Positions 50,341-64,000 of a stretch of DNA of 64,000 bases are shown piece after piece. A model generated the notes under the pieces. That model saw only the letters and a list, made by a program, of their open reading frames with translations. It was not told where the DNA came from and searched no databases. The DNA comes from an uncultured Clostridia bacterium (GTDB taxonomy: Bacteria; Bacillota; Clostridia; Oscillospirales; CAG-382): contig CANRAV010000010.1 in assembly GCA_947628695.1 (NCBI GenBank), forward strand, positions 1 through 64,000, in the 5' to 3' direction. How positions within the stretch are numbered: the stretch's first letter is position 1; every line of letters begins with the position of its first letter. The position numbers were made by a program, and so were the translations under genes.

Positions 50341-51036
50341 TTATGGAAGTACTATAGATCCGCCGTAATCGTACAGCGGATCGCTGCACAGGCTTTTTAC
50401 TTTTTTGTTATGCTTTTCACAAAAGCTTTGGATCTCGGCAAAGCTTTCGTGCGCTTCGATTTTTCCCGTGAAATACACCGTATCGTTTGTCGTAAATGCG
50501 CATCCACCTATAAAGCCGTTTTTATAGCCGTTAAGCCTGACGCCGTCGTTTGAAACAAGCAGCACGTCGTGCCCGTTTTCCGAAAGCGCCTTCGCAATAC
50601 CTTTGTCCGATGTTATAAAAGCTTCGCTGTTCAGCTTTACGGTGCTGCATGCGGCATAGCCCTGATTTACAGTTACTCTTTTAAGTCCAAGCTCTTCACA
50701 GCTTTTTGTTATTTCTTCAGCAGTATAGCGGCCAGATATTAAGCAATATTTCGTATAAAAACAGTTAAAAACACAGTCAAACGGATATTTTGCACCCTGA
50801 TGCGTCTTTGACACTATGCACTCGCAAAATGTTTCTAAATTGTGAACAGGTTCTAAAGAAGGGGACAGGAGCAGCTTATTGTTTGGCAGCAAAAAGTACA
50901 GCATATCGGGGTGATATGCTGTTTCATCACAAATTACGGAAGATCTGCCTGCGTTTATAAGCTCAAAGCCTTCGCAAGCAAGAGGGTGCCTTATATTTTC
51001 TGGCAGCAGCGACGACACAATAAGTCTTGTTTTCAT
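50341..51036 (-). CDS. DUF6873-like protein (possible GME fold)
   Basis: This is a 231-aa soluble protein without signal or membrane segments. NQGYAACSTVKLNSEAFITS and GFIGGCAFTTNDTVYFTG resemble clostridial proteins described as DUF6873, predicted to share the guanidine-modifying-enzyme fold. Cys residues occur in the positions where that fold often has its nucleophile, but I cannot show activity. The start overlaps the radA stop by 4 nt, so it is co-transcribed with radA. Confidence 0.6.
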   Translation of the reverse strand: MKTRLIVSSLLPENIRHPLACEGFELINAGRSSVICDETAYHPDMLYFLLPNNKLLLSPSLEPVHNLETFCECIVSKTHQGAKYPFDCVFNCFYTKYCLISGRYTAEEITKSCEELGLKRVTVNQGYAACSTVKLNSEAFITSDKGIAKALSENGHDVLLVSNDGVRLNGYKNGFIGGCAFTTNDTVYFTGKIEAHESFAEIQSFCEKHNKKVKSLCSDPLYDYGGSIVLP

Positions 51037-52406
51037 AGCCCCAACAGGCCTTTAAGGTCGTAAACGCCTCTTATCGGCACTATCTCGACGCCGCTGTACT
51101 TCTTTTTCAGCGTTTTTGCGGAGTGTGCAGGTATGGCAATGGTTTTAAAACCAAGGCGTATAGCCTCGTTAATTCTAAGCTCCATTCCGGTGACAGAGCG
51201 GCATTCTCCGGCAAGCCCGATTTCGCCGAAAGCTATAAGATCCTCCGGAATCGGCGTGTCCTTTAGCGAAGAAATAAGCGCAAGCGCCGTCGGCATATCG
51301 CTTGCCGTTTCGTAAAGTTGCAGCCCGCCTGTGACATTTAAATAAACCTCTAATGAGGAAAACTTCAAGCCCAGCCGTTTCTCAAGCACTGCCAAAAGCA
51401 AGGCAGAGCGGTTGTAGTCTATGCCTGACGCCATCCTTCGCGGTGACGGCGTAGGCGAGCTGTTTACAAGCGCCTGAATCTCAGCTATAATAGGCCGCGT
51501 GCCTTCCATAACACAAACAGCGCAAGAGCCTGAAACGCCGTGCGGGCGCTGGGAAAGAAGCGCTTCCGACGGATTTGCTACCTCTGTAAGACCGTCGTCC
51601 CCCATTTCGAAGACACCTATCTCGTTTGTAGAGCCGAAACGGTTTTTTGCAGCCCTGATTATCCTGTAAAGGTGCTGCTTGTTTCCTTCAAAATATAAAA
51701 CCGAATCCACCATGTGCTCCAAAACCTTAGGTCCTGCAATGGCGCCGTCCTTGTTGACGTGCCCAACGATAATAACGGCAGTTCCCAAGGTTTTTGCTAT
51801 GCTTATAAGACACATGGCGCTTTGCTTTACCTGAGTTACAGTACCGGGCATTGACGCAAGGTTGTCGTCGTACATAGTCTGGATAGAGTCTATAATCACA
51901 ACCTTCGGTTTTATGGCCTCTATCTCGGTTGTGATATTGTTTATATTCGTTTCGCAAAGTATGGAAAGGCTCTCCGTAGTTACGCCAAGCCTTTCGGCGC
52001 GGTGCTTGATCTGCGGTGCGCTTTCCTCGCCGGAAACGTAAAGTATATCCGTACCCTCCGCAATAGAGCTGCATATCTGCAAAAGCAAAGTCGACTTCCC
52101 TATCCCGGGCTCGCCCGAAAGCAGAACAACGCTTCCCTCGACTATGCCTCCGCCAAGCACGCGGTCAAATTCGCCTATTCCCGTGGAAAACCTAAAACAA
52201 TCGGTGTAGGTTATATCCTTTATTTTCATCGATTTGGAGGCAGAATTTAACGCCGTACGGGTGACCTTCCTTGCAGCGCCTTTTGGCTTTTCCGCGGACT
52301 CTACTTCCCTTTCTTCAAGCGTGTTCCACTCCCCGCAAAGAGGGCATCTTCCCATCCATTTCGACGTGGTGTATTCACAGTTAGTGCAAATGTACTGTGT
52401 CTTCAT
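51033..52406 (-). CDS. radA: DNA repair protein RadA
   Basis: This 457-aa protein begins with a four-Cys zinc finger (CTNCEYTTSKWMGRCPLCGEW region). The RecA-like ATPase has Walker A GEPGIGKST and the RadA-specific motif AAKNRFGSTNEIGVF. A C-terminal Lon-protease-like domain without a protease role begins near PRRMASGIDYNR. RadA drives branch migration in recombination. It lies 3 nt after cwlD on the same strand. Confidence 0.95.
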   Translation of the reverse strand: MKTQYICTNCEYTTSKWMGRCPLCGEWNTLEEREVESAEKPKGAARKVTRTALNSASKSMKIKDITYTDCFRFSTGIGEFDRVLGGGIVEGSVVLLSGEPGIGKSTLLLQICSSIAEGTDILYVSGEESAPQIKHRAERLGVTTESLSILCETNINNITTEIEAIKPKVVIIDSIQTMYDDNLASMPGTVTQVKQSAMCLISIAKTLGTAVIIVGHVNKDGAIAGPKVLEHMVDSVLYFEGNKQHLYRIIRAAKNRFGSTNEIGVFEMGDDGLTEVANPSEALLSQRPHGVSGSCAVCVMEGTRPIIAEIQALVNSSPTPSPRRMASGIDYNRSALLLAVLEKRLGLKFSSLEVYLNVTGGLQLYETASDMPTALALISSLKDTPIPEDLIAFGEIGLAGECRSVTGMELRINEAIRLGFKTIAIPAHSAKTLKKKYSGVEIVPIRGVYDLKGLLGL

Positions 52407-52409
52407 CTT

Positions 52410-53159
52410 TTACCTCTCCCGTATGTATTTCATTATCCCGCAGTAAATTGCAAAGGCAAGCTTGTTTTGATAATCCTCAGACGACAAAAGACGGCTTTCC
52501 TCCGGGTTGGAAAGAAAACCGCACTCCACCAAAACCGCAGTTTTCTTTGTGTTTTCAAGGATGTATATAGTCTTTCCGTCCGGTTTTACAGAGCGCTTAT
52601 TTGAAGGGTCCAAGAGCTTTGCATACTCTTGTATATACCCCGCAAGAATACCGGCGTCGTCAGAGGCGGAAGCGTAAAAGGTTTGAAGCCCCTTTGCAGA
52701 CGGCGACTGAAATTTGTTCATATGTATGCTTACAAAAACGCAGTTTTCAGTGGAGTTAAGTATCCTAAGCCGCTCGTTCAGGTCGGCTGCCTTGCGGCCG
52801 TTTGCGGCGTCTTCCTGCCCGAGAAGCGTGTCGTCAGTCCTTGTAAGAACAACCTCTGCGTCCGATAACGCCAAAAAGCACTGAAGCTTTTTTGCAAGCT
52901 TTAGATTAAGGTCCTTCTCCACCAGGCCGTTTGCTATGGCGCCGGGGTCTACGCCGCCGTGCCCTGCATCCACTATGACCGTAACCCGCGGCACGGAAGC
53001 GGAAGCGACGGCCTTATCCCTGTGTCCGGTCTTGCTGTAGCCAAACGAGGCGGCAAGAGAAGCAAAGCCGAAATAGCTGACAAGCACTATAAAGATTATT
53101 ATAAGCACCACGGAAGTATAGGCAATTTTTTTATATTTCACAAAATACACCGCCGTCAT
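52410..53159 (-). CDS. cwlD: N-acetylmuramoyl-L-alanine amidase, CwlD-like
   Basis: This 249-aa protein has a basic N-terminus, one membrane anchor (about 15-36) and an Amidase_3 domain. The zinc ligands are seen in VDAGHGGVDPGA, the Glu of GLVEKDLNLK and the His of VSIHMNKF. The catalytic Glu is in LVECGFLSNPEE. Size and architecture match CwlD, which helps make muramic lactam in spore cortex. The start is uncertain. ATG 53159 gives a normal anchor but lacks a Shine-Dalgarno site and lies in a hairpin. In-frame GTG 53225 would overlap the upstream gene. Confidence 0.82.
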   Translation of the reverse strand: MTAVYFVKYKKIAYTSVVLIIIFIVLVSYFGFASLAASFGYSKTGHRDKAVASASVPRVTVIVDAGHGGVDPGAIANGLVEKDLNLKLAKKLQCFLALSDAEVVLTRTDDTLLGQEDAANGRKAADLNERLRILNSTENCVFVSIHMNKFQSPSAKGLQTFYASASDDAGILAGYIQEYAKLLDPSNKRSVKPDGKTIYILENTKKTAVLVECGFLSNPEESRLLSSEDYQNKLAFAIYCGIMKYIRER

Positions 53160-53183
53160 TTTTTTAAAATCATATGACGGCGG
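53150..53183. promoter_or_regulatory. Inverted repeat covering the probable cwlD start codon
   Basis: CCGCCGTCAT (53150-53159) and ATGACGGCGG (53174-53183) are exact complements around 14 nt. On the minus strand the second arm contains the ATG chosen as the cwlD start. The hairpin could hide this start or act as an attenuator between the upstream genes and cwlD. Confidence 0.5.
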
Positions 53184-53196
53184 CGCAGAAAAAATG

Positions 53197-53796
53197 CTAT
53201 TTCCTTTTTTTGACCGAGGGGTCACCCGTGGTTGGCTTCATGCCAAAGAATGTCTTTATCTGCACGTCTTCCGTACCGAGATAATAGCCAAGAAAATACG
53301 CAAAAACTGCGGGAATAAAGTACAAAAGGAAGAAAAGCGGATACGCCTTCGGCATAGCACCCGCAAGCATCCAGGAAAAACCAAGGTACATGCCGTTGCA
53401 GACGAAGAGCGAAATAGTGGTAAAAACGGTAAGTGCACCGTCAACGGCACTAACGCCGGCAAGCGATATAAGCGTTAAAACCACAGACGGTATCACAAAC
53501 AGCATTGACGGGATGTAGGCAAAAAGCGCAACGGCCGCACCGTGAAACGGCCGCTTTTTAAGCCTTCCGTTTAAAATCCTGTTGCGATCCCTTGCACCCT
53601 CTTCCCAAGCGCCGTCATAAAGCAAGGCACAGAAGAAAAGAGCCGCGCAAACCGTTGCTATGATCATAGCCGTTTGGCTCATGGACGTGGAAATAATGAC
53701 CATAAAGCCGAACAGGCCGATGGCGATTTGATTCAGCAGAAACTTGTGAATAAGCTTCATGTTGTCAAGGTAGAAGTTTTTAAGCTTGTTAAACAT
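53197..53796 (-). CDS. Membrane protein of unknown function
   Basis: This is a 199-aa protein with about five transmembrane helices, a basic loop between helices 2 and 3 (DRNRILNGRLKKRP) and a basic tail. I recognise no family. ATG at 53796 was chosen because GGAG lies 8 nt ahead of it, while the in-frame TTG at 53802 is too close. It begins at the end of the zincin gene, so translation is probably coupled. Confidence 0.55.
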   Translation of the reverse strand: MFNKLKNFYLDNMKLIHKFLLNQIAIGLFGFMVIISTSMSQTAMIIATVCAALFFCALLYDGAWEEGARDRNRILNGRLKKRPFHGAAVALFAYIPSMLFVIPSVVLTLISLAGVSAVDGALTVFTTISLFVCNGMYLGFSWMLAGAMPKAYPLFFLLYFIPAVFAYFLGYYLGTEDVQIKTFFGMKPTTGDPSVKKRK

Positions 53797-53798
53797 TT

Positions 53799-54212
53799 TC
53801 AACGCTCCGAATGCTTTCCGTACAGGTCGATGTCTTTTGTGGGAATATACTCCCCGGTTCTGTTATAATGCTCTTTTTGTATGGCGTCCTTTACCTCCAG
53901 GTCGTGGTCTCCCGCAAGCGACTCGTTATGATGGGTAAGCTCGTGGATGAGTACATCTTTCAGGTGCTTTTTAAGCTCTTCGTCGCTTTTTCCGCCGTAA
54001 AGCCTGCGAAACGAACCGTAATAAAGCACAATATACCTGCCCATAGCCCTGCTTTTTATATATTCACCGAGGATGTAAAGCGAAGGAGTTTTAAGGTCCC
54101 GCTTTTCGTCGGGAACCATGTTTATTCCGCCGTTAAGCTGCCTTGAAAGCTCTGCTGGCAGCCCGTCCGCGACACCGTCAAGGTATGCGGCCGCTTCCTC
54201 AAAGCTAAGCAT
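53799..54212 (-). CDS. Metallopeptidase-family protein (minimal zincin)
   Basis: This 137-aa protein has the zinc motif HELTHHNESLAGDHDLEVKD, that is HExxH followed by a third ligand region typical of the small zincin-like family. It has no signal peptide and so is cytoplasmic. The natural substrate is unknown. It starts just after xth with a 1-nt gap and is followed with overlap by the membrane protein. Confidence 0.8.
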   Translation of the reverse strand: MLSFEEAAAYLDGVADGLPAELSRQLNGGINMVPDEKRDLKTPSLYILGEYIKSRAMGRYIVLYYGSFRRLYGGKSDEELKKHLKDVLIHELTHHNESLAGDHDLEVKDAIQKEHYNRTGEYIPTKDIDLYGKHSER

Positions 54213-54213
54213 G

Positions 54214-54972
54214 TCAAAGCTCCATTATAAGCCCGACGGGGCAATGGTCGCTTCCCTGCACCTCCGGGTAAATAAGGCTGTCTTTTATCCTGTCCTTGGC
54301 GTTTTCCGAAACCACAAAATAGTCTATACGCCAGCCGACGTTGTTTGCACGGGCATTGGAACGGTACGACCACCAGGTGTAGGCATCCCGCGCATCGGGA
54401 TACAGGTACCTGTATGAGTCGACAAATCCTGCGTTGAGAAGTGCGGAAAAGCAGCTTCTTTCTTCGTAGGAAAAGCCCGGATTCCCTACATTGCTTTTCG
54501 GGTTTTTAAGGTCTATTTCGTTGTGGGCAACGTTCAAATCTCCGCACAAAATGACCGGCTTTGTACGTGAGAGATTCGAAAGCCAATCTCTCAAATCGTC
54601 TTCGTATTTCATGCGGTATTCTATACGTTTAAGCTCCGGCTGAGCGTTTGGAGAATAACTTGTGGTTATGTAAAATCCGTCAAACTCAAGAGTTATGACC
54701 CTGCCTTCGTCGTTGTACGCGCCTTCAAGCCCGTAAAACACATTCATCGGCTCTTCCTTTGAAAGGACAAGCGTGCCGGAATAACCACGTTTGTCTGCAC
54801 TGTTCCAGTACTGATAATAGCCGTCAAAGCTGAAATCAGCCTGTTCCTTCAGCATTTTTGTTTCCTGAATGCAGAAAACGTCGGCGTTTGCTGCAGCAAA
54901 GAAGTCAAAAAAGCCTTTATTTGCACAGGCCCTGAGGCCGTTGACGTTCCAGGAGATAAATTTTTTCATCAT
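54214..54972 (-). CDS. xth: Exodeoxyribonuclease III
   Basis: This 252-aa endonuclease/exonuclease/phosphatase-family enzyme begins KFISWNVNGLRACANKGF. The metal-binding Glu lies in CIQETKM, the Asn/Asp pair in CGDLNVAHNEID, and the catalytic His near the end in GSDHCPVGLI. It cuts at abasic sites in DNA repair. The start ATG overlaps the stop of the beta-lactamase-fold gene (ATGA), which physically links DNA-repair genes to the surface-modification operon upstream. Confidence 0.95.
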   Translation of the reverse strand: MMKKFISWNVNGLRACANKGFFDFFAAANADVFCIQETKMLKEQADFSFDGYYQYWNSADKRGYSGTLVLSKEEPMNVFYGLEGAYNDEGRVITLEFDGFYITTSYSPNAQPELKRIEYRMKYEDDLRDWLSNLSRTKPVILCGDLNVAHNEIDLKNPKSNVGNPGFSYEERSCFSALLNAGFVDSYRYLYPDARDAYTWWSYRSNARANNVGWRIDYFVVSENAKDRIKDSLIYPEVQGSDHCPVGLIMEL

Positions 54973-56390
54973 TCAAGGCTTTCCGCACTGCCGGTGCTTT
55001 CATTGCTCTCCGCAATATCGGCACTGTCCGCGCTTTCGGGAGCAGTGCTGTTTTCGGGGTCTTCACTGCTGCTTTCAACTTGCACGCTCTCTTCTCCGGC
55101 CGATTCGTCGAACGCGGGCGCGTCCGTTCCGCCGCCATCCAGGTAGGCGTTATATTCAACCATCAGCTCTGCTAAAAGCTGTGTCACAAAGTTGAACTGG
55201 AATTGGCTGGAGCTGTCTTTTACTCCGTCCCTGCCCATAAGCACCGCGATGACGTACTCATGCCCGTCAGCGTAGACTATGCCCGCGTCGTTGAAGGCCT
55301 TACCGCTCCACCCGGATTTGTGCGCTGCTTCATACTGCGGTATAGCACGCCAGATATAGTTGTACTGAGCGTGCATAAAGCGGTCAAGCAGCTCTGCACC
55401 GCTGTCACAGCTTTTGCTGTAATAGTATATCTCGCGCCAAACGCGCGCCATTTCAAGGCCGGTTATATTACCCCAGTTGCTTCCCTGAGGGATAACCCTC
55501 GTACCGCCGAGAGCGGCGATCATCTTTTCAAAGTTTTCAGCACCTACGCGCTCCTTTATCATAAGGTAAGCCTGGTTGTCGCTTATCCTTACCATATAGT
55601 CCATAAGCGTTTTCAAAGTAAATTCCGTCCCGAACGGCGAGTTCTGAACAAGCCCGGTGCTGTCCTTTTGGAAATGATAAGGCTTATATGTCAGAACCGT
55701 GTCCCAGGAAAGGTCACCGTTGTCTATACAGCGGTATGTGAAAAGCGCCATCGGCCCCTTTATAGAGCTTGCGGTTGCTATTTTTGTGTCCTTGGAATAG
55801 CAGAAGACCATATCCGTATCCATGGAAATCAGCACCACGGACTGCGCATGAGAGAAGGAGGCAAAACGTGAAGCAAACTTCTGCACAAGCGCGTCACTTA
55901 GCCTGAAATCGGTATTGTAAAGCTCCATCCCGCCATTTGACCAAGCTCTATCAAGCTTAAGATTCGGTCCTACAAGGTCAAAATCGCCAGTTATAACCTC
56001 TTCCGTTGAACTGTCCTCCGGGTCGTCAACCGGTGCTTCTGTCGATTCTGCGGAAGAATCCGGTCCCGAAGACGTGGGGTCTTCCGAAGACGGCTCTTCC
56101 GCTGACGGCTCCTCCGACGAGGGAGCGTCTTCCGAAGGGGCGTTGCTTGAAAAGTCTACGGATTCATCGGATATGCTGCTTTCGTCAAGAGAAGCTGCAG
56201 ATGACCCGTCGGTATCTGCCGACGAGGACGAGGATGTGTCCACAGAGGATGCATTATCCGCAGAGGACGAGAAAACACTCGTATCCGCTGCAGAGCTTTC
56301 GTCTCCGTTTTCAACGCTCGTACAGGAAACCGCGCTTAAATACAAAGCGACGCACAAAAGAACCGCCGCGCATCTTTTAAAATAGGCCAT
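54969..56390 (-). CDS. Beta-lactamase-fold serine hydrolase lipoprotein with Ser/Glu/Asp stalk
   Basis: This is a 473-aa protein. A lipoprotein signal ends LSAVSC (lipid on C23). Then comes a low-complexity Ser/Asp/Glu/Ala/Pro stalk to about residue 135, and a class A beta-lactamase or penicillin-binding-type domain. Its motifs are SSIK (S208-x-x-K211), SDN (270-272) and KSG. A second acidic Ser-rich tail closes the protein. It may bind or cut peptidoglycan, or act as an esterase. True beta-lactamase activity is less likely. ATG at 56390 follows AAGGAG, and an upstream ATG lacks one. It is the last gene of the MBOAT operon. Confidence 0.8.
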   Translation of the reverse strand: MAYFKRCAAVLLCVALYLSAVSCTSVENGDESSAADTSVFSSSADNASSVDTSSSSSADTDGSSAASLDESSISDESVDFSSNAPSEDAPSSEEPSAEEPSSEDPTSSGPDSSAESTEAPVDDPEDSSTEEVITGDFDLVGPNLKLDRAWSNGGMELYNTDFRLSDALVQKFASRFASFSHAQSVVLISMDTDMVFCYSKDTKIATASSIKGPMALFTYRCIDNGDLSWDTVLTYKPYHFQKDSTGLVQNSPFGTEFTLKTLMDYMVRISDNQAYLMIKERVGAENFEKMIAALGGTRVIPQGSNWGNITGLEMARVWREIYYYSKSCDSGAELLDRFMHAQYNYIWRAIPQYEAAHKSGWSGKAFNDAGIVYADGHEYVIAVLMGRDGVKDSSSQFQFNFVTQLLAELMVEYNAYLDGGGTDAPAFDESAGEESVQVESSSEDPENSTAPESADSADIAESNESTGSAESLE

Positions 56391-56411
56391 CGCTGACTCC
56401 TTAAACATCGC

Positions 56412-56651
56412 TTACTTTGAACGTTCACGAATTATGTCAACCATCTCGCCGACATTTTTCATGGTGGAAACTTCCTTCATGCTGAACTTGACGGAAAATT
56501 CGTCTTCGACTGCGGAAATAAGGGTTATATGCGTAAGGCTGTCCCAATCTTCAACGTCTTCTGCGGTCGTGTCCGCCGTCAGCTTTATTTTTTCGTCAAA
56601 CACGTCTTCAAAGATTTCTTCAAGCTTCTCGTATATTTCCGTATCCTTCAT
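56412..56651 (-). CDS. Acyl carrier protein, operon-dedicated
   Basis: This 79-aa protein is an acyl carrier protein, with the phosphopantetheine site DWDSLTHITLISAVEDEF (S38). It is acidic and full length. It is not near fatty-acid genes. It lies 10 nt after the FkbH-type gene and 21 nt before the beta-lactamase-fold gene. The likely role is to accept an acyl group loaded by FkbH and offer it to the MBOAT enzyme, as DltC does for DltB. Confidence 0.9.
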   Translation of the reverse strand: MKDTEIYEKLEEIFEDVFDEKIKLTADTTAEDVEDWDSLTHITLISAVEDEFSVKFSMKEVSTMKNVGEMVDIIRERSK

Positions 56652-56661
56652 GTCAAATCTC

Positions 56662-58437
56662 CTAATTCACTTTAATATATCTGTTTTTGTTTACATATCC
56701 GGCTGTGTCAAGCTCCCAAACGGTGTTTCCGGCGTCGTCTTCGCTTATTTTTTTAAAGCCGAAATCGCCGAACAGATTCTTCACCATGCCGTTTTTTGCC
56801 GTCGGATAATAGAGGCCTTCTATTTTTTCAATCCCCTGCTTTTTGCAGCTGTCGACAAGAACGTCAAGCATGGCATATTCCATGTCGCGCTTAAGCACGC
56901 GGCAGGACATGATCCACAGGCCAATACAAAGCCTTTTGCCTTCCTTTTTGCCGATTACCACGGAAACAACGCCGTTGTCGCCAAACCTGTCGCAAAGTCT
57001 GCCGTAAAGGTCGATGTATTCGCCGCTTTCGGAGACGGCGGCAATTTCTTCCGCGGTATAGCGTTTTGTTGTCACATTAAACTGGTTGCTTTTGTTGGTA
57101 AGCTGAGCTATGCGCTGAATGTACACGGGCGCAAAGGGGGCGATCTCCGCCGTCATGTCAAGGCTTTTAAGGTACTCGCCGTAATCCTCAAAAGAGTGCA
57201 TCTCCTGCTCTCTAAGCGCGTTTGCTTTGTACATTTCGTTCCGCTTAAGATCGTCTTCGGAAAGTGTCGTAACCTCAAAAAAACCGCTCCTGTCGAGAAC
57301 GCGTATATAGTCGCCAACCGTGCCTATATCGGGCGCAGCCGAAGGAAGCGAACGTCTTACGTTTTCTCGCTCCACCGGGTTGTCGTCGACAAAGACTATT
57401 GAATCGGACATTATGTTAAGCTCTTTTGCCGTCCGCGCAACATTTCGGCCCTTAGGCTCCCAATTAGCCTTTATAACAAGAAAGTCTTCCGGCTTTAAAG
57501 CGCAGTCGGGATGGTTCAACCCGTCAATGGCGTTATTGTAGTCGTTTTTAGAGCAAACGGTAAGCATAACGCCTATTTCCTTGTTTTTCTTTATATACTG
57601 CTGAAATTCAAGGAAGGCCTGCCCCGTCGGTGTTTCGCTGCCTATTTCAAGGCCTTCAACACCGTCGTCGCCGACAACGCCGCCCCAAAGCGTGTTGTCA
57701 AGGTCAAGCGCCAGCGCCTTTTTGTTCTTACCGAAAATCGACTTTACTATGTTTGAAAGGTTAAAGGAAAGGTACGGTATTGCCTCCAGCGCGCAGGCGT
57801 ACTTGTACATGCACCAGCTGTTTACGTCGTGCCATTTGTCAAGCCCGAAGCAGGCGGAAACGTAATTTATGTCGTTTACAAAAAACGACTCGTGCTTGGC
57901 GGCGTATTCCGAGACGAAGGAATTCATCCTGTTTACGAAATTTGTCCGTCCGCGGTAGTCAACCGTGTCACGGTTGCCGAGAATCCTATATGCGGGCAGC
58001 TCGAAATTGTTCTGTATTACCGGGCGGTGGAAGGTCTCCTCAAGCTTGCGCCACATGGACAGGAAATGATCCTTCGCATCATCAAGGCGTTTTTCCGCAT
58101 CTTCTTTGCTGTCCTTTATTTCGGGAAAGAACCTTTCAAGGTTCCTTACCGTGGTATGGACGTAAACAATATCCGGCTTAAACAAATTGAGGGATTCGTT
58201 CCCAAACATCGCGTCCTGCCAATACTGCGCATACTCCGACAGGTAAAACGTCGGCTCTATTCCCTGTTTAAGCAGAAAAAGCTCTAAAACGTCCGCAACG
58301 TCGTTGACCGTAGAACCGCCGAGTATTGCAATATTTTTCTTTATTCGCGCAGAGCCGTCTGCAAGAAGCTCTCTTTTAAGCTTGCGCTTAAGCCTTAGTA
58401 TTTCCGACGGGTTAAAAGGATATGACAAAACCGACAT
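56662..58437 (-). CDS. FkbH-type HAD-IIIC enzyme (acyl-ACP loading)
   Basis: This 591-aa protein has three parts. The N-terminal region is SGNH-like (about 30-220, starting ILGGSTV). A HAD-IIIC phosphatase core (about 238-375) has the nucleophile in ALDLDNTLWGG (D245, D247), CSKND and VFVDDNPVE. The C-terminal part is a GNAT-like domain (about 430-590). FkbH relatives take 1,3-bisphosphoglycerate, remove a phosphate and place a glyceryl group on a carrier protein for polyketides and tetronates. The gene here sits directly before an ACP gene but far from any polyketide synthase. Glyceryl loading is inferred from family membership. Confidence 0.88.
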   Translation of the reverse strand: MSVLSYPFNPSEILRLKRKLKRELLADGSARIKKNIAILGGSTVNDVADVLELFLLKQGIEPTFYLSEYAQYWQDAMFGNESLNLFKPDIVYVHTTVRNLERFFPEIKDSKEDAEKRLDDAKDHFLSMWRKLEETFHRPVIQNNFELPAYRILGNRDTVDYRGRTNFVNRMNSFVSEYAAKHESFFVNDINYVSACFGLDKWHDVNSWCMYKYACALEAIPYLSFNLSNIVKSIFGKNKKALALDLDNTLWGGVVGDDGVEGLEIGSETPTGQAFLEFQQYIKKNKEIGVMLTVCSKNDYNNAIDGLNHPDCALKPEDFLVIKANWEPKGRNVARTAKELNIMSDSIVFVDDNPVERENVRRSLPSAAPDIGTVGDYIRVLDRSGFFEVTTLSEDDLKRNEMYKANALREQEMHSFEDYGEYLKSLDMTAEIAPFAPVYIQRIAQLTNKSNQFNVTTKRYTAEEIAAVSESGEYIDLYGRLCDRFGDNGVVSVVIGKKEGKRLCIGLWIMSCRVLKRDMEYAMLDVLVDSCKKQGIEKIEGLYYPTAKNGMVKNLFGDFGFKKISEDDAGNTVWELDTAGYVNKNRYIKVN

Positions 58438-58453
58438 ACCGCATCCTCCGATA

Positions 58454-59683
58454 TCACGGCGCTGTCCGCAGCTCTTCTATATGCTTGTAAACAACGCCTG
58501 TGGCGGTGTTTGCGGATATTGCAAAGACGGCGTCCGTCGCGCCGACCTCCTTGCAAAGCTTAACGCCGTTTCTTTTATAGTATCTGATGTCAACAATGTA
58601 TATCTCGTCAAAGGAAGCCAGCGTAAAAGGCGCAAAAGCGTTGCCGTAGCTGTCTTTAAATATAACAAGCTTTCTTCCGGTGTTGTTCTTCGTCACGACT
58701 TTAACTGTGTAAGAGTCGCCGCATATGAATGCACCGGCATAGCCCATTGTGTCAAATACGATGTTGTCCCTTTCAAAGTTCGGGCTTGAAAGGTCGTAGT
58801 TCCCCTCGTTGTAGTAATATGCCGTGCACTCTGTCTGCGGCATGTAAATTACAAAATCCTCGGGGTTGTTCTTTATTACATCCGCCTTTGAGAAGGTGTA
58901 GGCACTGCCGACATACCCCTGCTTAACTATTTTTTTGTAGCTGTCAAGCGGAGGAAAGCTTACATTCGCTTCCTTTGCAAAGGCCTCTGCCGCGTAGTAA
59001 CCCGCCAAGGCTGCCCAGTGGAGCTCCGTGCGGTGATAAATCGGCTCGTCAACGTGTTCCCAAAGCGCATTGTAAACGTCAACGTAGTGAACGTTCGGCG
59101 CGCATTTTTCCTTTAGGTTGGCAAAATTCATTCTGCCTCGCTCTATAAGATTCGAATAGCTGCTTGGCGCATAGTAGCAGCTTGTGTGTGGCGCAACGGC
59201 AGTGTACACTTCAACGCCGTCGCCAAGGTCATTTTTAAAGTCACCTATCATTTTGGAGCAGCTTGCGCCGGATTCCGGAGAGCCGAAGTATTGCTCCATC
59301 CCCCTTGTGCCGGTTATGAGTATCCCGTTTGCAAGATACGCGGTGTCGTCCCCCGCTTCGGAATTCACAGACGCCGACACGTCGGCAGCCGAGCTGTCCT
59401 CCTCGGACACAGGCGGTTCAGGAACCGAAACGTCGACGGTGACGTCGGCAGAGCTTTCCGGAACGGAGCATTCGGATGTTTCATTGCTGCCTGAGCTTTC
59501 GGCCGTCTCTGCGCTTGAAGATTCAACGCTGCTGTCTGCAGACTCACTTACGTCGCTTTCCGCAGCAGAAGAATTAGAAGAAGCATCTGCAGAAGAAGGT
59601 TCAGCATCCGGGGACTCTATCCCGGAGCAGGCACTTATAAGCAAGCAGAAAGCCAAAAACACGCAAAGTGCAAAGCGCTTCAT
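58454..59683 (-). CDS. DHHW/AlgJ-type SGNH lipoprotein, copy 2
   Basis: This is a 409-aa protein. A lipoprotein signal ends LLISAC (C19). A Ser/Glu/Asp/Ala stalk runs to about residue 112, then a SGNH-like domain of the DHHW family follows. The His motif reads TELHW (219-223), so the Asp of the usual D-x-H-W is Glu. The probable nucleophile lies in KDSYGNAFAP (S345). Near its end is VDIRYY. Such proteins act outside the membrane in transferring acyl groups to surface polymers, together with MBOAT enzymes. It starts one base inside the stop of copy 1. Confidence 0.8.
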   Translation of the reverse strand: MKRFALCVFLAFCLLISACSGIESPDAEPSSADASSNSSAAESDVSESADSSVESSSAETAESSGSNETSECSVPESSADVTVDVSVPEPPVSEEDSSAADVSASVNSEAGDDTAYLANGILITGTRGMEQYFGSPESGASCSKMIGDFKNDLGDGVEVYTAVAPHTSCYYAPSSYSNLIERGRMNFANLKEKCAPNVHYVDVYNALWEHVDEPIYHRTELHWAALAGYYAAEAFAKEANVSFPPLDSYKKIVKQGYVGSAYTFSKADVIKNNPEDFVIYMPQTECTAYYYNEGNYDLSSPNFERDNIVFDTMGYAGAFICGDSYTVKVVTKNNTGRKLVIFKDSYGNAFAPFTLASFDEIYIVDIRYYKRNGVKLCKEVGATDAVFAISANTATGVVYKHIEELRTAP

Positions 59684-60909
59684 TATCTGGACCTCATCTC
59701 GGCAATTTTCTTGCAGTTGCCGCCCATAGCGGAGAAGGAGCTAAGCGCAAAAATAACGTCCGTTGCGCCTACATCCTTGCAGAAGGTAATCGAATTCCCG
59801 GTATAGTACCTTATGTCAACTACATAAACAGTCTCATACACAGACATAAGAAGCGGAGCAAAGGCATTGCCGAAGCTGTCCTTGAAAACAACGGCGGTTT
59901 TGCCGTTATTAGTCCCCGTGTTAATCTTGCAAAGATTGTTGTCCGCATCGAGGAAGGTCATATACCAGGCGCTGTTGTATTCGTCGCTTATATGCAGGTT
60001 GCAGGTGTCTCTTGTAGCTTTAAGCGTCTTCCCGGTTTCAACGTCGTAATAATCCACGCTGTAGGTGTGGTTGAAGTCGTACCAGAAGAACTCGTCCGGG
60101 TTGTCCCTAAGCACGGCAGGTGACCCGGCAGAGTTGAAAAGCGAGCCCAAGAAAGGCTTAGGCGAGCCGTCGTCGTTGTATTTGCCGTTCTTTGTGTAAT
60201 ATCCGCTGTCAAGCTTTTTAAAGTCAAGCCCTGCGACTTCCGCAAATTTCTCCGCCGCATAGTATGCGCCAAGCTGTGTCCAGTGCCAGTCTGTGCGGAA
60301 GTAAATCTGCTCATCCCAATGGCTGTACAGTGCGTCATACACGTTGACCGATTTAACACCGGTGCCTTCGAATTTTTCGTCGAGGTAGTCAAGCTTTTCC
60401 GCCTGGCTGCCGCCGTACTTTTCATAGAAGTCAACACCGTCCCTCACCACGTTGCGAAGGTAAATGGATGATGAAGTCGGAGCAACCAGCGAGTAAACGT
60501 CTACACTGTCCCCAAGGTCCTTTTTGTACTGTGCAACCACCTGCGCGTAGTAATTTGCGCTGTCATAAGTGCCGCCGAAGGACTCCATGCAGCGGTCGCC
60601 GAGGATGATAAGGCCGTTTGCAAAGTCAAGGCCTGCACCGGTGTCCGACACATCCTCAAATGCAGAGCTGTCGTCTGTGCCGGCAACGGATTCCGGCTCG
60701 CTTGCCGCAGAGCTGTCGTCAATAGCTGCGGAAGAGTCGTCTGTACCCGAAGCCGAAGAGGCCGCATCACTTCCCTGCTCGGAATTAACGGTGCCTGAAT
60801 TGTATATATCCGGTTCATCGCTGCCGTCATCGTATTCGATGTTGGAGCAGGCTGTAAAAGCCGTCAACACTGTGATTATTGCCAAAATAATTGCTGCTGT
60901 TTTTTTCAT
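59683..60909 (-). CDS. DHHW/AlgJ-type SGNH lipoprotein, copy 1
   Basis: This is a 408-aa protein and a paralogue of the next gene. The lipoprotein signal ends TAFTAC (C21). A Ser/Asp/Glu/Ala/Thr stalk runs to about residue 92, followed by the SGNH-like domain. It keeps the full TDWHW motif (206-210, Asp and His of the AlgJ-type triad) and KDSFGNAFAP (S345). The N-terminal ENR-x-L/I-x-x-FP module found in ordinary DHHW proteins is missing. It is encoded separately by the upstream 118-aa gene. It probably carries the main acyl-transfer or esterase activity of the operon. Confidence 0.82.
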   Translation of the reverse strand: MKKTAAIILAIITVLTAFTACSNIEYDDGSDEPDIYNSGTVNSEQGSDAASSASGTDDSSAAIDDSSAASEPESVAGTDDSSAFEDVSDTGAGLDFANGLIILGDRCMESFGGTYDSANYYAQVVAQYKKDLGDSVDVYSLVAPTSSSIYLRNVVRDGVDFYEKYGGSQAEKLDYLDEKFEGTGVKSVNVYDALYSHWDEQIYFRTDWHWTQLGAYYAAEKFAEVAGLDFKKLDSGYYTKNGKYNDDGSPKPFLGSLFNSAGSPAVLRDNPDEFFWYDFNHTYSVDYYDVETGKTLKATRDTCNLHISDEYNSAWYMTFLDADNNLCKINTGTNNGKTAVVFKDSFGNAFAPLLMSVYETVYVVDIRYYTGNSITFCKDVGATDVIFALSSFSAMGGNCKKIAEMRSR

Positions 60910-60970
60910 CTTTCCTTCGCGGTAATACCGCGCCTTTCTTTAATTTCTTGATTTTTAAGACGACAAAACC

Positions 60971-61327
60971 TTATCCGTTGTAGTCGTCAAAAGAATATTC
61001 AACATCGCTTTCCGGGCGGGAATCATGCGCACCGTCTTGAATATTTGTGCCTATCAAATCCGTCTTTATGCCGTACAGGGACTTGATATCGACGATAAGC
61101 GAACGGAAGTTGGCCCTGTAAGGTATGGAATCCGTGTACCAGTCCGCTATCTGCGCGGTGTATTCCCCGCTGAAATACGCATCCGTGCTGAAACGCGGGA
61201 ATTTTACAATATAACGGTTCTCACTGTCTGCAAAGCCGTAAGTCCGCGTGCCGAAGGACATAAGACATATGACCGCAGCAAAAACAAGCAGTATACATAC
61301 AAGATTTATGATGTAAAACTTTTTCAT
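60971..61327 (-). CDS. Membrane-anchored DHHW N-terminal domain protein
   Basis: This 118-aa protein has one transmembrane helix (about 5-25). The module ENRYIVKFPRFSTDAYFSG and a following DSIPYRANFRSL match the N-terminal part of DHHW-family proteins. It ends shortly after, with an acidic tail (SDVEYSFDDYNG) and no SGNH domain. The stop codon is clean and the next gene starts with its own signal peptide, so this looks like a stable split rather than a frameshift. It lies 10 nt after the MBOAT gene and may link it to the lipoproteins. Confidence 0.75.
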   Translation of the reverse strand: MKKFYIINLVCILLVFAAVICLMSFGTRTYGFADSENRYIVKFPRFSTDAYFSGEYTAQIADWYTDSIPYRANFRSLIVDIKSLYGIKTDLIGTNIQDGAHDSRPESDVEYSFDDYNG

Positions 61328-61336
61328 GCCGTCCCC

Positions 61337-62767
61337 CTAAAACCTAAAGTACAAAAACGGGTTGTTTGTGGAGTCCGTAAGCATTATCACGCACAAAACA
61401 AGCAGTGCCGCATTTGTAACCGCAGTGACGCACACAGCGGCAGCCTCGCCCCTGCTTGTGGCATAAAGGCGCTTTTTGATGCATGGAACAATGGGTGTAC
61501 ACGCAACGGCGGCGAAAATAATCAGGAACAAAGAACTTAAAACCGTAGACTTTGAAAACGGGTCAATCAAAGCGTTGCCGTTTGCGCAGACCAGATTTTT
61601 AAAGAAATTGCCGAGGTCCTTTAAGTTCTCAAAGTAGAAGATGCCGAACCCGATTACAATGACAAGCAGCGAATAGATGTGAGAAACCACAGCCGGTATC
61701 TTTTTCATCCGCTTCTTCCCTATCAGCATCTCTATGAAAATAAAGGTGCCGAAATACAAGCCCCAGATTATGAAGTTCCAGGAAGCGCCGTGCCAAAACC
61801 CGGTGCAGAACCATACAAGGAAAAGGCTTAAATACTTCCGCCTCTTGCCGAATATCGGCACGTAAAGCAAATAGTCCCTGAAAAACGTTCCGAGGGAGAT
61901 GTGCCACCTCTGCCAAAACTCCGAAATATTTCTGCTTACGAAGGGATGCTTGAAGTTTTCGTTAAAGTGGAAGCCGAATATCCTGCCAAGCCCTATCGCC
62001 ATATCGGAGTATCCGGAAAAATCGTAGTAAACGTAAAGCGCAAAGCATATGACACCGACAACAGTACCGAAAAGGCTTTGCCCGACAAGCTTGCTGCCGA
62101 TAAAGTTCGTCTCTTCATAGCTTCCAAGCAGTTCCCCGACGACGGAATACAAAGCGTTTGCAACAAGCACCTTCTTTGAAAGACCCACTACAAAGCGCGT
62201 AGCCCCTTCGCTTAAATCCTTAAGCGTCGTCTTCCTGTCGTCGATTTCTTTTTCGATTGTGGAATAACGAACAATCGGCCCTGCAACAAGCTGCGGAAAC
62301 AGCGAGACGTACAAAAGCAGCTTGAAAAAGTTGATCTGCACATCTACCTTTTCCCAATAGCAGTCGATAATGTAAGACATTATCTGGAAGGTGAAAAAGC
62401 TTATGCCTATAGGCAGCCTGACGCCGGTAAGCGGTATAGATGTCTTTAGCAGCGCATTTATGTTTTCAATAAAGAAATCCGTGTACTTGAATACAAACAG
62501 CATCCCTATGTTGAAAACGATAGCAACAGTAACAGCTGCCTTCGCCTTGCCCGTGTTGCGGTGTTCCTCAATAACAAGCCCCGCAAAGTAGTTGACAAAC
62601 GCCGAAAGAAGCAGCAAAACGACATACGTCGGCTCTCCCCAGGCGTAAAATATCAGCGAAAATATTATAAGAACAGCGTTTTTTACCTTGATTTTCGGGA
62701 CAGCGAAGTAGCAAACGAAACAAGCTGCCAAGAAAACAAAAATAAAGAACAAGTCTGAAAAAACCAT
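61337..62767 (-). CDS. MBOAT-family O-acyltransferase (AlgI/DltB-like)
   Basis: This is a 476-aa protein with about eleven transmembrane helices. The conserved MBOAT stretches are YYDFSGYSDMAIGLGRIFG (247-265), ISEFWQRWHISLGTFFRDYL (281-300) and GFWHGASWNFIIWG (323-336), which includes catalytic His326. The order and length match AlgI, which moves acetyl groups for alginate O-acetylation, and the DltB-type superfamily. It would carry an acyl group across the membrane to the DHHW proteins. It is the first gene of the operon, behind a consensus promoter. The ribosome-binding site (CGGGTG) is weak. Confidence 0.93.
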   Translation of the reverse strand: MVFSDLFFIFVFLAACFVCYFAVPKIKVKNAVLIIFSLIFYAWGEPTYVVLLLLSAFVNYFAGLVIEEHRNTGKAKAAVTVAIVFNIGMLFVFKYTDFFIENINALLKTSIPLTGVRLPIGISFFTFQIMSYIIDCYWEKVDVQINFFKLLLYVSLFPQLVAGPIVRYSTIEKEIDDRKTTLKDLSEGATRFVVGLSKKVLVANALYSVVGELLGSYEETNFIGSKLVGQSLFGTVVGVICFALYVYYDFSGYSDMAIGLGRIFGFHFNENFKHPFVSRNISEFWQRWHISLGTFFRDYLLYVPIFGKRRKYLSLFLVWFCTGFWHGASWNFIIWGLYFGTFIFIEMLIGKKRMKKIPAVVSHIYSLLVIVIGFGIFYFENLKDLGNFFKNLVCANGNALIDPFSKSTVLSSLFLIIFAAVACTPIVPCIKKRLYATSRGEAAAVCVTAVTNAALLVLCVIMLTDSTNNPFLYFRF

Positions 62768-62808: not shown

Positions 62809-62837
62809 ATTATATATCATTTTCCTAAATAAGTCAA
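62809..62837 (-). promoter_or_regulatory. Promoter of the MBOAT operon
   Basis: On the minus strand, TTGACT (62832-62837) and TATAAT (62809-62814) are exactly 17 bp apart, about 42 bp before the MBOAT start codon. No other strong promoter was found before 54 kb, so one transcript may cover the whole operon and perhaps the repair genes after it. Confidence 0.8.
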
Positions 62838-62875: not shown

Positions 62876-62899
62876 AATCCCCCGCTTTTGCGGGGGATT
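62876..62899 (-). terminator. Intrinsic terminator of the PotD-like gene
   Basis: AATCCCCCGC (62876-62885) and GCGGGGGATT (62890-62899) form a perfect 10-bp stem with a four-base loop. On the minus strand it is followed by a run of T, ending the PotD-like transcript before the MBOAT promoter. Confidence 0.9.
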
Positions 62900-62903
62900 G
62901 CGC

Positions 62904-64000
62904 TTAACTTAAGTTGTAATAAGCTTCGTCTATTTTGCGCTTTTTCTTTGTGTAAACCTTTATAATCATCATTGCCGCAAGTACTGCCACAATAATGCCG
63001 CAGGTGACGTAAATCCCTACCGTATTTCCGCCGTCGGCTTTTATAGACGACCACTCGTAGTTCATGGTGTTTATAATCTCCTGCTTTTGGTTGCGGAACA
63101 TAAGGCTGTGGTTGAATGGCTTTGACCCGTCAAGCTCCGGCGGGTAGAGTATGTTATACGCGTACTCGTCGTTTTCCTTGCTAAAGATGTAGTCCGGGTT
63201 TTCTACAACCGTTTTGTTCGGGCTTGCATAGCAGATGTACTCCGCATTTGCAAGAGCAATGTCCTCGCGCAGCATGTAGTCAATAAACTTCTCCGCTTCG
63301 CTTACGTGCGTGCTGTTTTTGGTTATGCACATTACGTCTATAAACTGGTTTGTTATAAGCTCTCCCTGCTCGTTTCTGGGATAAAAGAACTCTAAGTCTT
63401 CGTTTTCATCCTTCATGGTCAGAAAGTCGCCTGCGTAATAGGTCGCAACTGCGGCGTTGCCGTCCTCCATGATGTCAAAAATCTCGTCGTTGACGTAGCG
63501 TTTTAAAACCTTTTTTTGGCGTCTCAGCTCGTCGGAAGCTTGCTTCCAGTCGTTGACATTATCGGAGTTTACGTCAATCCCAAGCTTAAACTGTGCAATT
63601 GCGAAGGCGTCACGCGGGTTGTCAAACATAAGAATCTGCCCCGCATAGTCTTCACTCCAAAGAAGGTCCCAGTTTTCCGGAGGGTCGCTTACAATGCCGG
63701 AGTCGTATATCACCCCGACCATGCCGACAGTGTACGGTATTGAATACTCGTCGTTCGGGTCAAACGGGAAAATTCCCTTGTAAATATCCGCAATGTTTTT
63801 GTAATTGGGGATATTTTCCGTGTTTATCTTTTGAAGATAACCCTCTTCATACAGCCTTTCAAACATGTAGTCGGAAGGCACGACTATGTCGTAGGTAATC
63901 CCCCCGTTTGAGAGCGCCGCATAAAGCTCCTCGTTATTGGCATAGGTTATATATTCAACGTCTATGCCGGTTTCCTTCTCAAACTCCGCGATAACGTCAA
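62904..64000 (-). CDS. PotD-like polyamine-binding protein with C-terminal membrane anchor (partial)
   Basis: The frame is open to the window edge, so the N-terminus lies outside. At least 364 codons are present. The start of the visible part, FEKETGIDVEYITYANNEEL and YDIVVPSDYM, is typical of spermidine/putrescine-binding PotD, as are IPYTVGMVGVIYD and the ENWDLLW stretch. After the binding domain comes an extra transmembrane helix (TVGIYVTCGIIVAVLAAMMI) and a basic tail (KVYTKKKRK), which anchors the protein with its C-terminus inside. Ordinary PotD is only a lipoprotein. A fusion to a PotC permease upstream is possible and cannot be checked here. Confidence 0.85.
   Translation of the reverse strand, partial: DVIAEFEKETGIDVEYITYANNEELYAALSNGGITYDIVVPSDYMFERLYEEGYLQKINTENIPNYKNIADIYKGIFPFDPNDEYSIPYTVGMVGVIYDSGIVSDPPENWDLLWSEDYAGQILMFDNPRDAFAIAQFKLGIDVNSDNVNDWKQASDELRRQKKVLKRYVNDEIFDIMEDGNAAVATYYAGDFLTMKDENEDLEFFYPRNEQGELITNQFIDVMCITKNSTHVSEAEKFIDYMLREDIALANAEYICYASPNKTVVENPDYIFSKENDEYAYNILYPPELDGSKPFNHSLMFRNQKQEIINTMNYEWSSIKADGGNTVGIYVTCGIIVAVLAAMMIIKVYTKKKRKIDEAYYNLS

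Follow-up and report, generated by a model that had tools for sequence, protein, structure and literature searches.

The first 64,000 nucleotides of contig CANRAV010000010.1 (assembly GCA_947628695.1), from an uncultured Clostridia bacterium of the CAG-382 lineage and hereafter called the window, carry at 54969..62767 on the minus strand a seven-gene operon that we propose to be a surface acylation system with its own carrier protein. In 5' to 3' order its genes encode an MBOAT acyltransferase, a DHHW N-module, two SGNH/DHHW lipoproteins, an FkbH-type enzyme, an acyl carrier protein (ACP) and a beta-lactamase-fold lipoprotein; they were found at the positions and on the strand given in the original prediction, and the seven identities were borne out by Pfam and NCBIfam matches. 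The anatomy of the operon and the co-occurrence of its genes give good support to surface acylation by a carrier-fed MBOAT-SGNH set. With a probability of about 0.6, the operon is such a set with its own carrier and FkbH, which would esterify a surface polymer with glycerate from glycolytic 1,3-bisphosphoglycerate. Glyceryl as the transferred group is a best guess, suggested by the presence of FkbH. The combination of a carrier, a fused acyl shuttle and an FkbH loader is likely a variant of known bacterial surface acylation.

Components of the operon

The MBOAT (476 aa, 61337..62767) was recognized by PF03062 (77.1 bits) and matched the DltB structures 6bug and 8jem with an E-value of 6e-21 each. 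Its His289 (RWHIS) and His326 (GFWHG) align with the conserved histidines of DltB, the active residues of the latter being taken from passages of PMC11035591. The DltB equivalog model TIGR04091 gave 152.5 bits, under its cut-off of 375. The protein ends in FLYFRF (residues 471-476, codons 61340..61357, Tyr473 at 61349-61351), an instance of the FXYXXF acyl-shuttle motif, for which acyl-tyrosine chemistry is described in PatA and which is borne by DltX in the Dlt system (excerpts of PMC12148441). The motif is C-terminal in all 39 distinct MBOATs of at least 430 aa that are linked to both FkbH and DHHW, and in 24 of the 28 that are linked to FkbH but not to DHHW; of the four proteins that lack it, two stop at a contig edge. 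The MBOAT's own FLYFRF is predicted to supply the role of the absent DltX, giving a Dlt/Pat hybrid. The original prediction had missed this C-terminal stand-in for DltX.

The FkbH-type enzyme (591 aa, 56662..58437), the only FkbH match in its own genome, consists of FkbH_N, a HAD phosphatase and a GNAT-like C-terminal domain. It resembles the FkbH/OzmB glyceryl transferase-phosphatases in scoring 281.1 bits with TIGR01686 (cut-off 146.65), in its HAD motifs and invariant cysteine, and in the ACP gene that lies 10 bp away; it differs from those pathways in that its partner is an MBOAT-SGNH pair and not a polyketide or tetronate synthase. In the alignment Asp245, Asp247, Ser296, Lys297, Asp351 and Asp352 are kept in 114/114 near and 12/12 distant rows. 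Cys512, part of a C-terminal Ser-Cys-Arg motif, is present in all 112 near rows that have a residue at this position and in all 12 distant ones. A structure model, for which P0029 was excluded from the alignment on account of its repeated segments, matched the HAD protein 3slr and GNAT folds. The GDSL-like lipase 3p94 was also among the fold matches of the model, a hint that one domain, probably the N-terminal one, may be SGNH-like. The ACP (79 aa, 56412..56651; PF00550, 26.8 bits) carries WDSL, with Ser38 as the phosphopantetheine site. ACPs beside close FkbH proteins have W[DN]S in 102 of 103 cases and WES in one.

The DHHW N-module (118 aa, 60971..61327) covers positions 1-74 only of PF14286 and has, by eye, a hydrophobic N-terminal stretch. 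Lipoprotein 1 (59683..60909) covers positions 77-385 with TDWHW, KDSF and DIRY, and lipoprotein 2 (58454..59683) positions 81-385 with TELHW, KDSY and DIRY; both have a lipobox-like N-terminus, as assigned by a loose pattern. Both copies thus retain the serine (KDS), x-HW and D-x-R-Y of Pat-type SGNH/DHHW partners, copy 2 with glutamic acid for aspartic acid in Asp-x-His-Trp. The same replacement is found in copy 2 of L009, a locus from goat caecum Clostridia, and in both copies of L123 (motif counts taken from the alignment). In the structure searches lipoprotein 1 matched 4nzk (157.8 bits) and PatB1, 5v8e (26.9 bits). Judging from their coverage of the family model, we take the N-module and the lipoproteins to be a single DHHW protein that has been split, together with an additional catalytic copy. 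A frameshifted DHHW gene was considered and rejected, because the catalytic part is a frame with a start of its own whose N-terminus is signal-peptide-like and lipobox-like, and because separate N-modules of 120-127 aa also occur in L009, L069, L076 and L123. According to excerpts of PMC9487903, the DHHW family holds one characterized acetyltransferase, PatB1, and one uncharacterized structure, 4NZK from E. siraeum. The DHHW protein encoded at L142 12180-13334, directly before a DHHW-FkbH-ACP arrangement, matches the 4NZK fragment with 100% identity across 339 residues. This means that a solved structure already exists for the family of this system.

The last gene (54969..56408) encodes a beta-lactamase-fold lipoprotein (PF13354, 110.7 bits) with SxxK, SDN and KSG motifs. 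At E<=1e-8 its family comprised at least 52 proteins, itself included, among 7,987 scored candidates. In the 26 of the 52 that were aligned, Ser208-x-x-Lys211, Ser270-Asp271-Asn272 and Lys358-Ser359-Gly360 (numbering of P0121, 473 aa) are invariant and the lipobox cysteine nearly so. The site where ExxLN (Glu166) is expected is occupied by GxNWG, as read by eye. The core of the structure model is confident, its nearest folds being class A beta-lactamases and PBP-A. Identity as a class A beta-lactamase was not favoured, given the missing ExxLN position beside the kept SxxK, SDN and KSG; NF033103 gave 52.2 bits of 200. For thirteen of the 51 other family members the longest contig has exactly the length of that of one of the 23 closest FkbH relatives, an indication that the two genes may share a contig. 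DltE of L. plantarum, a penicillin-binding-protein-fold protein encoded in the dlt operon, is described as an esterase acting on D-alanylated lipoteichoic acid (D-Ala-LTA; excerpts of PMC10241514). Because of its fold, its motifs, its place in the operon and this precedent, the lipoprotein is best read as a candidate esterase of the new ester.

Proposed route of the acyl group

In the route that we propose, the activated acyl group of 1,3-bisphosphoglycerate, a metabolite that is reportedly diverted by OzmB, would be bound by Cys512 in the GNAT-like domain of FkbH. The HAD domain (Asp245/Asp247) would strip the 3-phosphate and FkbH would load the glyceryl unit onto the phosphopantetheine at Ser38 of the ACP. 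Loading from 1,3-bisphosphoglycerate would make an adenylating ligase such as DltA unnecessary. The MBOAT would accept glyceryl-ACP on the cytoplasmic face, and its catalytic histidines would hand the unit on to Tyr473 in the C-terminal FLYFRF shuttle of the same protein, at the outer face. From there the SGNH domains, which the membrane N-module would recruit and lipid anchors would keep in place, would take the glyceryl on serine and transfer it to a wall or surface glycan. Finally, the beta-lactamase-fold lipoprotein may cleave the ester or move it elsewhere, in the manner of DltE on D-Ala-LTA.

The alternative that survives best, though we consider it unlikely, keeps the same carrier-fed MBOAT-SGNH surface acylation but replaces plain glyceryl by a related hydroxyacyl group: lactyl, phosphoglyceryl, or one altered by enzymes encoded elsewhere. 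It draws on two FkbH-ACP clusters, L122 10339-11584 and L036 14608-15990, that include a MaoC-type dehydratase and an SDR enzyme, and on polyketide pathways for which excerpts of PMC7489565 give proposed schemes with further oxidation of glyceryl-ACP. A modifying enzyme is absent from the window operon, however, and beyond the core set no family was found near FkbH in more than 13 of 80 named loci plus the window (these loci are introduced below). Moreover, the conservation of the HAD nucleophile Asp245 in every near row speaks for removal of the phosphate, and transfer of plain glyceryl is preferred.

Recurrence of the gene set

A scan of named genomes with the FkbH alignment yielded at least 568 confirmed relatives, the best 80 of which were kept as named loci. 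Linkage required the same strand, with an ACP within 1.5 kb of FkbH and an MBOAT or DHHW gene within 6 kb. In these best 80 of at least 568, FkbH was adjoined by an ACP in 70, an MBOAT in 56, a DHHW gene in 38 and either of the latter two in 64; all four genes occurred together in 30, and the misses are an upper bound because some contigs stop close to FkbH. The MBOAT-DHHW-FkbH-ACP set is thus conserved, and its recurrence across many genomes is more than chance. All seven genes in identical order were present in L009. Outside Bacillota the set of named loci includes L066 (Alphaproteobacteria), L073 (Treponema) and L078 (Synergistaceae), which are metagenome bins and possibly misbinned.

The second sample consisted of 197 genomes of the order that had not been chosen by likeness to the window; FkbH was over cut-off in 38. 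Outside the own genome, 44 stretches covering 45 over-cut-off matches gave 47 FkbH open reading frames (ORFs). With our own FkbH model, 35 ORFs in 34 loci scored >320 bits and were called near, the remaining 12 distant. An ACP adjoined 31 of the near ORFs, an MBOAT 23, a DHHW gene 17, and an MBOAT or a DHHW gene 28, with all four genes together in 12. Among the 12 distant ORFs the corresponding numbers were 1, 2, 0, 2 and 0. The difference between near and distant was significant by Fisher's test for the ACP (p 8e-7) and for MBOAT/DHHW (p 2e-4), the rows not being independent. The MBOAT, ACP and DHHW counts were obtained with hidden Markov models built on window-seeded matches, so that divergent partners were missed, such as the proteins of 358-409 aa beside the MBOAT in L221 and L223, which had no Pfam match. 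Association with ACP, MBOAT and DHHW is a property of this FkbH subfamily, a conclusion to be taken with caution in view of a post-hoc limit and window-seeded models. In one genome of the order the FkbH copy is broken by a stop codon (L136 5655-7433), while the ACP and MBOAT frames alongside are open.

The MBOAT itself follows FkbH. A quick tree with long branches was made of 109 MBOATs, in which identical rows were entered once and proteins of <430 aa left out. The window MBOAT fell in a set of 43 rows (SH-aLRT 100), 35 of them lying beside FkbH and DHHW and 8 counted as unlinked. One of the eight, L021, is linked at 3,993 bp, past the distance cut; the remaining seven belong to genomes in which FkbH is at another site. 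These seven genomes belong to nine that were searched because no MBOAT adjoined their FkbH, and seven of the nine hold an MBOAT of the window clade elsewhere. In the genus g56, FkbH and MBOAT are truly apart in four of five genomes (G108, G136, G159 and G181), and the contig with FkbH breaks off in the fifth (G067). Among the matches listed in a search of the 197 genomes with the window MBOAT, FkbH was over cut-off in all 16 genomes whose match reached at least 56% identity; without the own genome these are 15 of 15, against 38 of 197 overall (hypergeometric p 9e-13, related genomes not being independent). The next matches listed were at most 51% identical and came from genomes with and without FkbH. 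MBOATs of the window-type clade go together with FkbH in a genome even when the two genes are not linked.

This bears on a second alternative, which we regard as distinctly improbable. It holds that the MBOAT-DHHW pair is an ordinary acetyl-CoA-fed O-acetyltransferase of the PatA1/PatB1 or CcsH/CcsI type and that FkbH-ACP makes another product in a shared operon. DHHW was over cut-off in 143 of the 197 genomes as against 38 for FkbH, the characterized DHHW enzyme PatB1 is described as O-acetylating in excerpts of PMC9487903, and the own genome has a second MBOAT-DHHW pair (L008) that is free of FkbH. Yet the MBOAT of this second pair lies outside the clade that tracks FkbH, and the FkbH-ACP-MBOAT combination recurs in other gene orders and phyla. 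Nor was a polyketide synthase or non-ribosomal peptide synthetase (NRPS) partner found in the own assembly (G000), which is 87.4% complete. In it neither the ketoacyl synthase domain PF00109, whose control was positive in 14/14 genomes, nor the NRPS condensation domain PF00668 had a match, and the remaining window genes look like housekeeping genes (purine/pyrimidine synthesis, a hydrogenase-like set and RadA, named by eye from translations). A polyketide or NRPS partner was rejected on these grounds; the original prediction had likewise seen no polyketide genes. The lack of a PF00109 match also raises the possibility that the organism lacks FabF/FabB and depends on outside fatty acids.

Relatives on plasmids and the acceptor

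A search of plasmids gave 114 records with an FkbH relative, five of which were opened. ACP-FkbH-MBOAT was found on a plasmid of Rhodobacteraceae SC52. On S. meliloti (Sinorhizobium meliloti) pSymB (L223 4636-9671) the order is MBOAT, a 409-aa protein, ACP and FkbH, and capsule export genes lie 5-8 kb away. The 409-aa protein is annotated as a TonB receptor and has no Pfam match; this annotation is doubtful, and the protein may have an SGNH-like role. On a Niveispirillum plasmid FkbH-ACP is accompanied by a WcbI-like acetyltransferase and an SDR gene, on a Streptomyces plasmid by ketoacyl synthase (KS)/KASIII genes, and on a Subdoligranulum plasmid it lies in an unannotated stretch in which MBOAT and DHHW had no match. 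With partners so varied, the FkbH-ACP pair looks like a portable donor cassette whose acceptors differ. The original prediction of a candidate new system holds as to a Dlt-like set with FkbH; since the set occurs widely among Clostridia and Alphaproteobacteria have related modules, it is not peculiar to the window.

A glycan-synthesis neighbour that would name the polymer was sought among the clusters shared by at least 5 of the 80 loci plus the window, and none was widely recurrent, one glycosyltransferase family being near FkbH in 7 loci; the context therefore does not give the acceptor. That the set might instead make or export a small secreted metabolite or lipid, such as a glycolipid headgroup ester, is the least probable reading: it accords with this lack and with FkbH being otherwise known, in the excerpts of the literature, from natural-product pathways, but the SGNH lipoproteins carry PatB1-like motifs whose characterized cases, in the same kind of excerpts, act on envelope polymers, the S. 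meliloti module is close to capsule export genes, and stand-alone dlt operons are not known to carry glycan genes either.

Comparison with known systems

The window set is like Dlt in having a carrier protein in the operon (ACP, 56412-56651, WDSL), a DltB-like MBOAT, an SGNH partner and a penicillin-binding-protein/beta-lactamase-fold serine protein, as DltE is described in excerpts of PMC10241514, all in a single operon. It differs in that FkbH takes the place of the adenylating ligase, that the MBOAT itself carries the DltX motif at its end, and that DHHW lipoproteins, accompanied by a separately encoded membrane module, serve as the SGNH partners. In the own genome DltD (PF04914) had no match and DltA (TIGR01734) none over cut-off (best 112.9 against 559.85 bits), nor did DltA have one in the seven operon proteins. 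Membership in Dlt was rejected on DltA, DltD and the TIGR04091 cut-off for DltB, and the original placement of FkbH at the position of DltA, with a dedicated ACP, was supported.

PatA/PatB, AlgI/J/X, PatA1/PatB1 and CcsH/CcsI share with the window an MBOAT with C-terminal FXYXXF and an SGNH/DHHW partner. For MBOAT-SGNH pathways outside Dlt, acyl-CoA is the stated donor and a similar carrier protein is said to be lacking (excerpts of PMC12148441, 2025). The dedicated ACP and loader distinguish the window operon from such pairs, and the ACP in the operon and beside 31 of the 35 close FkbH ORFs speaks against an acyl-CoA donor of that type.

Our reading implies a particular stereochemistry of the ester. 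Glycerate taken from 1,3-bisphosphoglycerate would have the D-glyceryl form. The original prediction had pointed to gellan, a bacterial polysaccharide that bears glycerate esters; this parallel was set aside because the stereochemistry differs, gellan carrying L-glycerate (excerpts of PMC9104527). Among the papers listed in the literature search, none was titled for a gellan glyceryl transferase. Among those listed from the open-licence PMC literature (preprints excluded), none dealt with an FkbH-MBOAT surface system. One paper on a cyanobacterial peptide (excerpts of PMC13122637) mentions both FkbH and MBOAT, in separate steps of one natural product.

Points against the proposal

Several observations weigh against transfer of glyceryl by this set. 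The first concern FkbH. Glyceryl-ACP as the product of this subfamily would follow from conserved residues, the excerpts of the FkbH literature concern polyketides and peptides, and the structure model is of modest confidence (pLDDT 76, pTM 0.48). The loaded unit may also be altered in some clusters or lineages, because L122 (G191) and L036 pair FkbH-ACP with MaoC and SDR genes. The shuttle motif, further, ends 40 of the 42 MBOATs unlinked to FkbH and is thus not specific to FkbH partners; as it is general across MBOATs, the carrier protein is the novel element.

Other points concern the linkage. Neither MBOAT nor DHHW was near FkbH in 16 of the 80 named loci. Of the 35 near ORFs, a number in which the broken FkbH of L136 is counted twice, 7 were without an adjoining MBOAT or DHHW gene. 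Three of these (L121, L143, L159) are on short contigs, the other four (L122, L127, L141, L151) are not, and in L127 and L141 an ACP was absent beside FkbH as well. The limit of 320 bits was fixed after the scores had been seen, and the near group was favoured because the partner models were seeded from window-like loci. Two of the nine genomes without an MBOAT beside FkbH (G178 and G191) have no window-clade MBOAT elsewhere. The beta-lactamase-fold gene, which the original prediction had rightly placed in the operon, was detected besides the window in a single named locus of the 80, L009, and is for that reason a marker of one lineage and not a core part. Finally, the absences in the own genome are provisional because of the completeness of its assembly. 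In the 197 genomes DltD was over cut-off in 13, FkbH in 38 and both in none; with p 0.056 and related genomes, it is only a hint that the FkbH set and Dlt replace each other.

Transcription unit and neighbouring genes

The gaps between the seven genes are, in order, 9, 61, -1, 16, 10 and 3 bp. A sigma-70-type promoter-like site, TTGACT-17-TATAAT (62809..62837, minus strand), agrees with the consensus at 11 of 12 positions, a consensus match only. It has the top score on the minus strand and lies directly 5' of the MBOAT gene; the scanned 13.8 kb held 22 such sites against 14.1 expected from shuffles. The arrangement of tightly spaced genes behind one promoter that had been predicted was thereby recovered. 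Between the unit and the gene before it lies a terminator-like hairpin of the intrinsic type (62876..62899, minus strand), with 10 pairs, 7 of them GC, and a T-rich tail. This preceding gene (62904-64000, minus strand) encodes, by the look of its translation, a substrate-binding-protein-like product of a polyamine-type ABC transporter, with a hydrophobic stretch close to the C-terminus.

At its 3' end the transcription unit probably does not stop at 54969 and may run on toward 50341, because xth overlaps the beta-lactamase-fold gene by 4 bp and the downstream gaps are tight (-4, 1, -4, -29, 3 and -4 bp). The genes at 50341..54972 (minus strand), named by eye, are xth, those for a 137-aa and a 201-aa protein, an amidase, RadA and a 231-aa protein. 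They are possibly co-transcribed with the operon and were not counted as part of the acylation system.

Significance

A published division, taken from excerpts of PMC12148441 (2025), assigns a carrier and a separate shuttle peptide to Dlt, and acyl-CoA and a fused shuttle to the other MBOAT-SGNH systems. The window set joins the carrier to the fused shuttle and exchanges the adenylating loader for FkbH. At even odds, this represents a third feed for extracellular acylation, in which the sequence FkbH, ACP, MBOAT shuttle and DHHW would give a surface D-glycerate that reports glycolytic flux and is edited by an esterase; such a feed would be widespread in Clostridia in the place of Dlt, with cousins near alphaproteobacterial capsule genes as in S. 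meliloti. The proposal is directly testable, as the structure 4NZK of an FkbH-linked DHHW protein exists and S. meliloti offers a tractable relative. If true, it would name the donor for a distinct clade of uncharacterized clostridial MBOAT-DHHW genes, predict a D-glycerate ester at the cell surface and extend FkbH chemistry from natural products to the biology of the cell envelope.

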